The notes beneath the pieces are model-generated. The model made no database searches and was not told the DNA's origin. It was given only the letters and a program-made list of their open reading frames with translations. From Rhabdothermincola salaria (GTDB lineage: Bacteria; Actinomycetota; Acidimicrobiia; Acidimicrobiales; Acidimicrobilacustridaceae), in the NCBI RefSeq assembly GCF_021246445.1, contig NZ_JAJQXW010000001.1:310001-374000 (forward strand): 64,000 nucleotides of DNA. Direction: 5' to 3'. A program made the translations under genes and the position numbers. Shown here piece after piece: positions 15,365 to 17,900 of this stretch (position 1 is its first letter; every line of letters starts with the position of its first letter).

Positions 15365-16012
15365 ATGGCACGTCCCCGAACGCCCAAGGGCCGAGCTCGC
15401 GAAGTGCTTCGGCGACTCAGCGATGAGTATCCGGACGCCCGGTGCGAGCTCGACCACCGCAATGCCTACGAGCTGTTGGCGGCCACGATCCTGTCGGCGC
15501 AGTGCACAGACGCCCGGGTCAACATGGTCACCCCGGCGCTCTTCGCCCGCTTCCCCACTCCCGAGGACCTGGCGGTCGCCGACCCGGAGGTGGTCGAAGA
15601 GCTCGTGCACTCCACCGGCTTCTACAAGAACAAGACTCGCAGCCTCATCGGGATGGCGCAGGCGCTGGTCGAGCGCCACGGCGGGGAGGTGCCGGGGGCC
15701 ATGCCCGACCTGGTGAAGGTCCCGGGGGTGGGGCGCAAGACGGCGAACGTGGTGCGCAGCGTCGCCCTCGACCTGCCGGGACTCCCCGTCGACACCCACG
15801 TGCTGCGCCTGTCGGCTCGGCTGGGGCTCACGACCGAGACCGACCCGGTGAAGGTCGAGCGCGTGCTCGACCCCATGGTCCCGGCTCGGGAGCGGGGTCG
15901 CTTCAGCCTCCTGTTGATCCTTCACGGCCGCCGGGTCTGCCCGGCGCGCCGACCGAAGTGCGACGTGTGCGTCCTGGCCGACATCTGTCCGTCCGCCGGG
16001 CTGGGTGTCTGA
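15365..16012 (+). CDS. nth: Endonuclease III
   Basis: A base-excision repair DNA glycosylase/AP lyase for oxidised pyrimidines. The 215-residue protein has the helix-hairpin-helix VPGVGRKTANVV with catalytic Lys125, catalytic Asp143 in PVDTHV, and a C-terminal iron-sulfur loop with Cys192, 199, 202 and 208 in the family C-x6-C-x2-C-x5-C spacing. All key residues are present. ATG 15365 is leaderless. A short stem (GGTC/GACC) followed by TTTTTT at about 16033-16056 may end its transcript. Confidence 0.95.
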   Translation: MARPRTPKGRAREVLRRLSDEYPDARCELDHRNAYELLAATILSAQCTDARVNMVTPALFARFPTPEDLAVADPEVVEELVHSTGFYKNKTRSLIGMAQALVERHGGEVPGAMPDLVKVPGVGRKTANVVRSVALDLPGLPVDTHVLRLSARLGLTTETDPVKVERVLDPMVPARERGRFSLLLILHGRRVCPARRPKCDVCVLADICPSAGLGV

Positions 16013-16131
16013 CGGTGCCGGCGGTGCGGGCCAGGTCTCTCGACCGGTTTTTTCTTCCGCCCGTTTCCCCTGCTCAGGGGCGTCCGGTCGGGTCGTCGGG
16101 CGGGGCTGGGCGCGACTTTTCCGGCCCTGGC

Positions 16132-16161
16132 CTGACAGGTGGCGATCTGAGGGGCTATCGT
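16132..16161 (+). promoter_or_regulatory. Promoter of the small-RNA candidate
   Basis: A -35-like CTGACA (16132-16137) and a -10 TATCGT (16156-16161) are separated by 18 bases. The predicted start is near 16168. It is the clearest two-element promoter in the window. Confidence 0.6.
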
Positions 16162-16167
16162 CATCCC

Positions 16168-16266
16168 TGTCAGGTTCCCGCCACCTGACATCCGGCGACA
16201 CATATTGGGATCCGCCGCCCAGTGTCGCCTGCCGACGCCCCCTTCGAGGGGCGTCGGCCTCTTTTT
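16168..16266 (+). ncRNA. Candidate three-hairpin small RNA
   Basis: About 99 bases between nth and the next gene fold into three consecutive stems. Stem 1: TGTCAGGT/ACCTGACA (16168-16175 with 16183-16190), loop TCCCGCC. Stem 2: GGCGACAC/GTGTCGCC (16194-16201 with 16222-16229), with an inner TGGG/CCCA pairing and a C-rich loop. Stem 3 is an 11-bp terminator followed by TCTTTTT. A two-element promoter precedes it, and the following gene has its own -10, so the RNA stands alone. The C-rich loops recall the actinobacterial 6C RNA, but I cannot confirm membership. Confidence 0.65.
16231..16266 (+). terminator. Intrinsic terminator with U-tract
   Basis: An 11-bp perfect stem (16231-16241 with 16248-16258), loop CTTCGA, then TCTTTTT at 16260-16266. 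It is the strongest canonical terminator in the window. Confidence 0.85.
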
Positions 16267-16324
16267 GCCCACCCGCACGGTGCTTCTCCGGGCCGGCCCG
16301 GGAGGCAGCGCCCCCGGCGTCCTC

Positions 16325-16336: not shown

Positions 16337-16531
16337 GTGGACTCCGAGCGTGCGCAGCTGTCATCGGCCAGGACGACCCTCGACGATCTCGTGGCCAAGG
16401 TGGCCGACATCGCCGAGGGCATGCACAACCAGGGCCAGGATGCCGTCGCCCACGACCTGTTCGAGGTCGAGCGGGCCCTGCGGATGGCCCAGCGGCGGCT
16501 CGACGCGGTGACCAGACGGATGCGGCGCTGA
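16337..16531 (+). CDS. Small helical protein, function unknown
   Basis: A 64-residue protein, almost wholly helical and charged, with heptad-like Leu/Val/Ala spacing (DDLVAKVADIAEGM and DLFEVERALRMAQRRLD) and a basic tail ending in RRMRR. The GTG start follows CATACT by six bases, and the protein ends 52 bases before hisD. I do not recognise a family. The basic end could bind nucleic acid, but that is only a guess. It is supported as a gene by its own -10 and the fit between the two neighbours. Confidence 0.6.
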   Translation: MDSERAQLSSARTTLDDLVAKVADIAEGMHNQGQDAVAHDLFEVERALRMAQRRLDAVTRRMRR

Positions 16532-16569
16532 TCGGCGCAACCCCTGCCGGGGCCGAGTGCGGGGCCGGG

Positions 16570-16575
16570 TAGCGT
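16570..16575 (+). promoter_or_regulatory. -10 hexamer of the hisD operon
   Basis: TAGCGT ends eight bases before the hisD GTG at 16584. It is likely the main promoter for hisDCBHA. Confidence 0.5.
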
Positions 16576-16583
16576 TCGTCGTC

Positions 16584-17900
16584 GTGTTGAACCGACTCGA
16601 CCTGCGTGGCCGTCGCGGCGATCTGACCGCCGACCTGCCCCGCCCCGATCCGGGGGGCGAGGGGCCCGTCGCCGCGGTGCGGGCCATCGTCGCCGACGTG
16701 GCGGAGCGAGGCGACACCGCCGTTCGGGAGTACACCGAGCGCTTCGACGGGGTCGTCCTCGACGACCTGCGGGTGGACCCCTCCGAGGTCGCCGCCGCCA
16801 TCGACGCGGCACCCGCGGAGCTGGTCGCCGCCCTCACCGAGGCCCGCGATGCCGTGCAGGCCTTCCACGAGACCCAGCTCCTCGAACCCCATGTCTTCCG
16901 CCGCCGGGGCGTCACGGTCGAGGGCCGGTCCGTTCCCGTCGATCGGGCCGGCTGCTACGTCCCCGGAGGGCGGGGCTCGTACCCCTCGTCGGTGCTGATG
17001 ACCGCCGTTCCCGCCCGCGTCGCCGGCGTCCCCGAGGTCGTGCTGTGCGTCCCCCCCGACCGCAGCACCGGCAAGGTCGCCACCTCCACCCTCGCCGCTG
17101 CTGCCCTGGCCGGTGTCGACGAGGTGTACGCCATCGGCGGGGCCCAGGCGGTCGCCGCCATGGCCCACGGCACCGAGTCCATCCGCGGGGTCGACGTCAT
17201 CGCCGGCCCCGGCAACGTCTACGTGGCGCTGGCCAAGCGGGAGGTCGCCGGGCAGGTCGGCGTCCCCATGGCCTTCGCCGGGCCGTCGGAGATCGTGGTC
17301 GTCGCCGATGCCACCGCCCCGGCGGACTTCGTGGCCGTCGACCTCATGGTGCAGGCCGAGCACGGGCCCGACGGGCTGGCGTGGCTGGTCACCTGGGACG
17401 AGGCCGTCGCCGATGCCGTCGACGCGGCCCTCACCCGTCTGGTCGCCGAGGCGCCTCGCCAGGCCGAGATCAGCGCCACCTTCGCGTCCGGTGGGTTCTG
17501 CGCGCTCGTCGACGGCCCCGACGACGCGCTGGCCGTGGTCAACCACGTGGCGCCGGAGCACCTGCAGCTCATGACCGGTGACCCCGACTCGCTGGTCCCC
17601 GGGGTGCGTCATGCCGGCGCCGTGTTCTGCGGGCCGCTCGCTCCGGCGTCCATCGGCGACTACGTCGCCGGTCCCAGCCACGTGCTGCCCACGTTCGGCA
17701 CGGCCCGTTACGGCAGCGCCCTCACGGTCAGCGACTTCACCAAGCAGGTCCATGTGGTGCACGTCGACGCCGAGGGCTTCGCCACGGCCGCGCCGGTCGT
17801 CGCCGCCATCGCCGATGCCGAGGGCTTCGCCACCCACGCCGAGTCGGTGCGGTTGCGCCAACGGGCGCTCGATGCCGACGTCGAGGCGGGCACCACGTGA
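16584..17900 (+). CDS. hisD: Histidinol dehydrogenase
   Basis: Catalyses the two-step NAD-dependent oxidation of L-histidinol to L-histidine, the last step of the pathway. The 438-residue protein has GCYVPGGRGSYPSSVLMTAVPA, DEVYAIGGAQAVAAMAHGT, the VIAGPGNVYVALAK block, AEHGPDG and VNHVAPEHLQL, with the zinc and catalytic His residues in place. GTG 16584 follows TAGCGT by eight bases. The stop overlaps the hisC start (GTGA), implying coupled translation. Confidence 0.96.
   Translation: MLNRLDLRGRRGDLTADLPRPDPGGEGPVAAVRAIVADVAERGDTAVREYTERFDGVVLDDLRVDPSEVAAAIDAAPAELVAALTEARDAVQAFHETQLLEPHVFRRRGVTVEGRSVPVDRAGCYVPGGRGSYPSSVLMTAVPARVAGVPEVVLCVPPDRSTGKVATSTLAAAALAGVDEVYAIGGAQAVAAMAHGTESIRGVDVIAGPGNVYVALAKREVAGQVGVPMAFAGPSEIVVVADATAPADFVAVDLMVQAEHGPDGLAWLVTWDEAVADAVDAALTRLVAEAPRQAEISATFASGGFCALVDGPDDALAVVNHVAPEHLQLMTGDPDSLVPGVRHAGAVFCGPLAPASIGDYVAGPSHVLPTFGTARYGSALTVSDFTKQVHVVHVDAEGFATAAPVVAAIADAEGFATHAESVRLRQRALDADVEAGTT

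Follow-up and report, generated by a model that had tools for sequence, protein, structure and literature searches.

A candidate small RNA family of the Acidimicrobiales with CCGCC loops and no counterpart in Rfam

The 64,000-nucleotide stretch of the Rhabdothermincola salaria genome analysed here (the window) most likely encodes, on its plus strand, a free-standing regulatory small RNA of an Acidimicrobiales family that is absent from Rfam. This RNA most likely acts in trans and meets its partners through its loops. Comparison among relatives points to two display hairpins with free stem sequences and near-invariant CCGCC loops, together with a -10-like box and an intrinsic terminator. The limits of the covariance model are 16166..16268, and the transcript is predicted to run from about 16167 to 16266, taking the -10 box as the guide to its 5' end and the T tract to its 3' end, which gives a likely length of about 100 nt. 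A sequence-only reading had proposed a free-standing three-hairpin RNA with its own promoter and terminator at this place, and the proposal is supported by covariation, by the conserved position of the -10 box and by two loci in which the RNA is inverted.

Upstream of the RNA on the same strand is an nth-like gene of the HhH-GPD base excision repair type (15365..16012; PF00730, E 4.6e-25). Downstream, also on the plus strand, are a small gene of 64 amino acids (16337..16531), whose product gave no family above the cut-off in the family search, and hisD, encoding histidinol dehydrogenase (16557..17900; PF00815, E 5.7e-143). The gene after hisD encodes a class I/II aminotransferase and is taken as hisC (PF00155, E 4.7e-55). 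The three uninterrupted perfect stems of 8, 8 and 11 bp described from the sequence were all recovered at those lengths, with arms at 16168-16175/16183-16190, 16194-16201/16222-16229 and 16231-16241/16248-16258. Hairpin 1 (16168..16190) pairs TGTCAGGT with ACCTGACA around the loop UCCCGCC (16176-16182). In hairpin 2 (16194..16229), the outer stem of GGCGACAC and GTGTCGCC encloses an additional inner stem of TGGG and CCCA, unlisted in the sequence-only reading, that leaves an eight-base loop, AUCCGCCG (16210-16217). The intrinsic terminator (16231..16266) combines the 11-bp stem and the loop CTTCGA with CTC and five T (16262-16266). Folding of a 159-nt stretch gave -77.8 kcal/mol (z = -5.0), and none of 200 dinucleotide shuffles folded as well.

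The stems were examined in two alignments. The first, A1, holds 40 distinct rows from 42 loci; it omits L029 and L047, which were missed by the motif search, although L029 is plainly a relative. The second, A2, holds 100 loci; the matching loci L108, L122, L125, L160, L162, L163 and L164 and the matching genomes G056, G171, G368, G516, G717 and G051 lie outside it. The two share eight loci, and their union is the set of 132 loci used below. In A1, double-sided changes occur at 18 of 30 pairs and 94.0% of cells are paired, as against 36-57% when partners are slid by one to three columns. In A2, which was aligned by the covariance model and is hence biased towards the model structure, changes on both sides affect every one of the 30 pairs (542 cells, compared with 122 in shuffles), the covariation score is 0.571 (0.179 when shuffled and 0.04-0.08 in slid versions), and the terminator helix is 98.4% paired. 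Entire stems of hairpin 1 are rewritten among relatives, from TGTCAGGT/ACCTGACA to TACCAGGT/ACCTGGTA or GCTGGGT/ACCCAGC. When RNAalifold was run on A1 with no imposed structure, it recovered helices 2 to 4 and gave hairpin 1 only as a three-pair helix with a covariation term of -1.7, in the authors' opinion because MAFFT misaligned six rows with shorter loops (L023-L027 and L043). The compensatory changes expected of a genuine RNA are thus present in both alignments, and on this comparative evidence the structure of the RNA is under selection.

The promoter proposed from the sequence consists of a -35-like hexamer, CTGACA (16132..16137), and, after 18 bases, a -10 box, TATCGT (16156..16161), of the form TANNNT. 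Four scans spanning the window gave no promoter-like match other than this pair (16132-16161; 1, 0, 0 and 0 matches), and shuffled scans gave 0.4, 0.2, 0.3 and 0.2, about 1.1 in total. By itself, the lone match is no better than chance, and it is conservation that carries the case. TANNNT lies 9-14 bases 5' of the start of the RNA model in 93 of the 132 loci, and across the set these six offsets hold it 96 times, compared with 15 for all 41 offsets between -60 and -20. The -35 element is only weakly conserved among relatives, with at least four of the six bases of TTGACA in 24 of the 93 loci, compared with 5 of them when control spacings were used. The 93 aligned promoters also have G at -4 and at -2 in 68% each, and their A+T content reaches 72% at -40 and 85% at -39 from the -10 box, compared with a G+C content of 72% and 66% in two sampled genomes. 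This patch rich in A and T, some 40 bases 5' of the -10 box, may be an UP element or a regulator site; in the window, the corresponding possible UP-like element is CTTTT (16116..16120, plus strand). Across 864 kb of the host genome (524 regions), no hexamers are more strongly over-represented upstream of genes than TAGGGT and TAGCGT, and the promoter of the RNA therefore looks like the ordinary type of the host. A TANNNT-like box is also seen about 8-12 bases before the ATG of hisG in many relatives (loci L282-L311). Together with the hexamer excess, this box suggests that many genes are probably leaderless.

At the other end of the RNA, the terminator had been described as the sole canonical U-tract terminator in the window. 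The four scans gave 10 terminator-like sites (3+0+2+5) versus about 8.8 in shuffles, and that of the RNA is the best of the ten, with a stem of 11 bp, where no other exceeds 8, and then five consecutive T. A second, weak candidate is found on the minus strand, in which a 5-bp stem is followed by TTTTT (57824-57811). The statement that no reading frame uses the region needs amendment, since mechanical open reading frames cross it on both strands. These frames are judged spurious because relatives vary by compensatory changes and by insertions and deletions that are not multiples of three, the loop-to-loop spacing among relatives ranging from 25 to 31.

The place of the RNA among its neighbours bears on whether it is an independent gene. 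An upstream nth in the same orientation is found at 100 of the 132 loci, and at 87 the order is nth, RNA, hisD, with all three on one strand. This arrangement, and a terminator ahead of a biosynthetic operon that recalls attenuation, would suit a hisD leader or attenuator acting in cis, or an RNA processed from the 3' end of nth. A cis-acting leader would always be upstream of, and co-directional with, hisD, but at two loci (L072 and L085) nth and hisD flank an RNA that alone is inverted, and at 51 an antiparallel small gene separates it from hisD; for these two reasons it is not a leader of hisD. In addition, the examined flank showed no nth at 30 loci and no hisD at 25, seven loci have none of nth, hisD and hisC, and the conserved -10-like box stands at the 5' end of the RNA itself. 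Both forms of this explanation were set aside on account of the inversions, the intervening antiparallel gene and the neighbours not found in the examined flanks, and they retain a very slight probability. At 55 loci the small gene beside the RNA is downstream on the opposite strand, and at 26 it shares the strand of the RNA. At the sequence level, the free-standing RNA is favoured by its -10-like box (93 of 132 loci), its paired terminator helix, the two inversions and the 51 separations.

Plain DNA comparison found the RNA in the host and in 32 of 36 family relatives (E < 1e-16). The other four genomes (G011, G013, G015 and G028) gave no RNA by this comparison; on closer search, G013 alone gave a match, and a weak one (E 0.09). 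A covariance model built from 40 sequences (R1, threshold E <= 0.01) scored 106.6 bits at the RNA of the window, whose sequence belongs to R1, and 18.3 bits at the runner-up within the window; no second copy was found in the host genome by the R1 search or by a search with a 14-mer of loop 2. Among 198 genomes of the host's order, R1 matched 107 and detected no copy in 91. It matched 35 of 198 genomes in a class sample, of which only G679 lies outside the order, and 23 of 396 in a phylum sample, all within the order; both samples mix members of the order with an unstated number of genomes from elsewhere, and strict search filters can lose weak matches. A second model, R2, built from 100 diverse copies, matched 36 of 198 and 23 of 396, a gain of a single genome, which belongs to the order. 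The RNA is present as one copy in 102 of the 107 genomes and gives two matches in five, namely two full-length copies in G064, G109, G143 and G177, and one full-length and one short copy in G052. An exact-pattern scan of 84,980 species genomes, which demands one loop and stem form and hence misses many copies, returned 23 stretches, in assemblies labelled Acidimicrobiia, Acidimicrobiales, Ilumatobacter, Ilumatobacteraceae, Microthrix or Microthrixaceae, or merely actinobacterium or Actinomycetes. Phage-borne copies were also considered and rejected: four viral contigs fit a loose pattern and none fits the model at an E of 0.1. Phage and plasmid collections gave no blastn match at an E of 1e-5.

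The loops are the most constant part of the RNA. In A2, the first base of loop 1 is constant in 69% and the rest in 92-97%, and the bases of loop 2 are constant in 79%, 86%, five times 99%, and 91%, while the stem columns have a mean constancy of 74%. Loop 1 reads UCCCGCC in 64 of the 100 loci, ACCCGCC in 15 and CCCGCC in 6, and loop 2 reads AUCCGCCG in 70 and UUCCGCCG in 6. CCGCC is found in both loops in all 40 rows of A1 and in 90 of the 100 rows of A2, with nine rows having it in loop 2 alone and one in loop 1 alone. As the loops are conserved on freely varying stems, they would be expected to meet a partner. In G052 (L047 and L165), the main copy is devoid of the loop-1 motif, and a second, short RNA (L165), a weak match to R1 (E 0.003), consists of hairpin 1 and the terminator only, without hairpin 2. 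The RNA of this genome looks split, which suggests that the loops may work independently, one by one.

The mechanism proposed on these grounds would begin with transcription from the -10-like box by the host's ordinary promoter type, with the transcript starting at the foot of hairpin 1. The loops would then be the working surface, forming kissing or antisense duplexes with GGCGGA or GGCGGG in a limited set of mRNAs. Pairing would need neither Hfq nor CsrA and either loop would be able to act, a scheme modelled on the C-rich loops of mycobacterial B11/6C. The action of 6C/B11 was reportedly found to be chaperone-independent in a 2019 study of M. tuberculosis. For 6C/B11, base-pairing through C-rich loops has been demonstrated: repression of a target leader that carries six G needs no more than one of the two B11 loops in M. 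abscessus (PMC10470900), and the seed in M. marinum is loop 3, which is C-rich (PMC12395582). Antisense action of the loops on a few mRNA targets stands, in the analysts' estimate, at a little under an even chance.

Target searches covered 864 kb of the host genome (524 upstream regions) and 800 kb of a second genome, G047 (445 regions). In the host regions, GGCGGGA, GGCGGAT and CGGCGGAT were not clearly enriched beyond trinucleotide composition; GGCGGGA occurs 7 times versus 7.1 expected, and CGGCGGA slightly exceeds expectation (16 versus 9.1, rank 717 of 8194). The corresponding counts in G047 are 9 versus 6.3 and 12 versus 8.2. Weakly in favour of pairing, the hexamer CGGCGG, within the loop 2 complement, is over-represented upstream of host genes (80 versus 51.8, rank 66 of 3080), and GGCGGG and GGCGGA are commoner before than after starts in the host. 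In G047, however, CGGCGG falls to rank 478 of 3491, and TCCGCC and CCCGCC, which are like the loop strand itself, stand above their complements. Sites in both members of orthologue pairs from the two genomes were found in 8 of 237 versus 4.3 expected, like several control motifs (7 versus 4.05 and 5 versus 2.7). The start signal GGAGG was counted within 20 bases before the starts of 99 and 160 genes in the two genomes, figures that are partly circular, as the rough gene finder, of the authors' own making, scored Shine-Dalgarno sequences for its approximate starts. The upstream-region and orthologue counts above rely on the starts of this finder as well. The loops do not match GGAGG in either genome, and broad anti-Shine-Dalgarno action was rejected on this ground and for the lack of clear enrichment of loop-complementary heptamers. 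As a single candidate target, hisG was also rejected, the site being kept in only 5 of 28 leaders (30 loci, of which two gave no start). Taken together, these counts suggest that the targets are few, or that the partner is a protein.

If the partner is a protein, the RNA would be a decoy or scaffold whose two CCGCC hairpins titrate an RNA-binding protein, in the style of CsrB/RsmZ with another protein and another motif. CsrB and RsmZ titrate CsrA, and they resemble the present RNA in the repeated loop motif on variable stems. Such a role would agree with the near-identical motif in two loops on free stem sequences, with the lack of clear target enrichment in the host and G047, with near-invariance across an order, which suits a conserved protein partner, and with the two full-length copies in four genomes. 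However, unlike in CsrB/RsmZ, there is no GGA in loop 1 (hairpin 2 has a GGGA at its inner stem), and CsrA, which is rare in Actinomycetota, was not found in the host and is absent from 29 of 31 genomes of the order, the exceptions being L240 (G039) and L241 (G017). Furthermore, no candidate protein for CCGCC hairpins was identified, and the RNA offers two sites only, below typical protein-decoy RNAs, which have more than two. The decoy or scaffold is accordingly rated as somewhat unlikely, behind antisense pairing of the loops. Hfq was found in none of the 31 genomes.

It is fairly probable that these data describe an order-wide regulatory RNA family with a CCGCC loop code, unlike both the C6 code of 6C and anti-Shine-Dalgarno loops, whose target in these Hfq-free and mostly CsrA-free bacteria is either a conserved GGCGG regulon of small size or an RNA-binding protein. 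The Acidimicrobiia are reported to be abundant in mine water, sludge, and fresh and marine water (PMC5962788). No regulatory RNA of this class, including Microthrix and Ilumatobacter, was found described in the open-licence literature searched. With its strong covariation, its single copy in nearly all matching genomes and its mostly kept neighbourhood, the family could be annotated at once. If the loop code is right, there would be two versions of the C-loop style of small RNA known from mycobacteria, differing in target sequence. The loops also show precisely which bases mutagenesis should address.

The assignment to a new family is supported by the absence of matches in Rfam. At the gathering score, Rfam 15 has no match in the window, and among the loci of 20 relatives chosen for diversity it recovers two tRNAs only, neither at the RNA. 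A weak hit to xerDC RNA was dismissed as chance (17.6 bits, cut-off 72.5). The sequence-only reading had also offered a divergent 6C RNA, and this part of it is not supported: RF01066 (6C; cut-off 47 bits) has no match at the locus even at an E of 10. Like 6C/B11, the RNA is free-standing, about 100 nt long and composed of hairpins with C-rich loops. In 6C, however, the loops are runs of six to eight C (PMC4046766), whereas here the two hairpin loops are UCCCGCC and AUCCGCCG, neither containing a run of about six C. The alphaproteobacterial ar14 RNA (RF02344) likewise has several hairpins presenting C-rich loops, but these read CUCCUCCC in the model consensus, and ar14 has no match at this locus.

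A common origin with 6C, either as a divergent 6C RNA or as a paralogue whose C6 loops became CCGCC, would account for the shared layout, in which display hairpins bearing C-rich loops are combined with a terminator, and for the presence, in the 6C-like stretch of a same-genus relative (L033), of GGGATCCCCCCTCCC, which resembles GGGATCCGCCGCCC here. Weak 6C matches, however, stand elsewhere in the genomes. The only one in the host (29.4 bits; G000:C1:1432900-1432969, L034) is 1.1 Mb away from the RNA. In 61 genomes, RF01066 gave 11 weak matches in 10, none over the cut-off and the best at 42.8 bits; by eye, nine of the 11 have hairpin loops with runs of at least five C, and L032 and L038 have none. 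A control search of 14 known genomes gave weak matches in two, Caulobacter and C. glutamicum, the latter of which has 6C, and over the cut-off in neither. The control rang weakly and never over the cut-off, so the weak matches may be real or chance. Of the 10 genomes that gave a weak 6C match, nine have the RNA of the window as well, and the two are thus separate genes, if those matches are real. A divergent 6C RNA or 6C paralogue is accordingly rated as quite improbable, although the two RNAs may yet share an origin, and a family of its own remains the preferred reading. The 6C-like stretches (L034, and L031, L033, L035-L037 and L039-L041) have two or three hairpins with C runs and score 23-43 bits, and they are possibly an unlisted Acidimicrobiia branch of 6C. 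Four of them (L036, L037, L039 and L040) also match the ar14 model, at 30.5-32.4 bits against a cut-off of 58.8.
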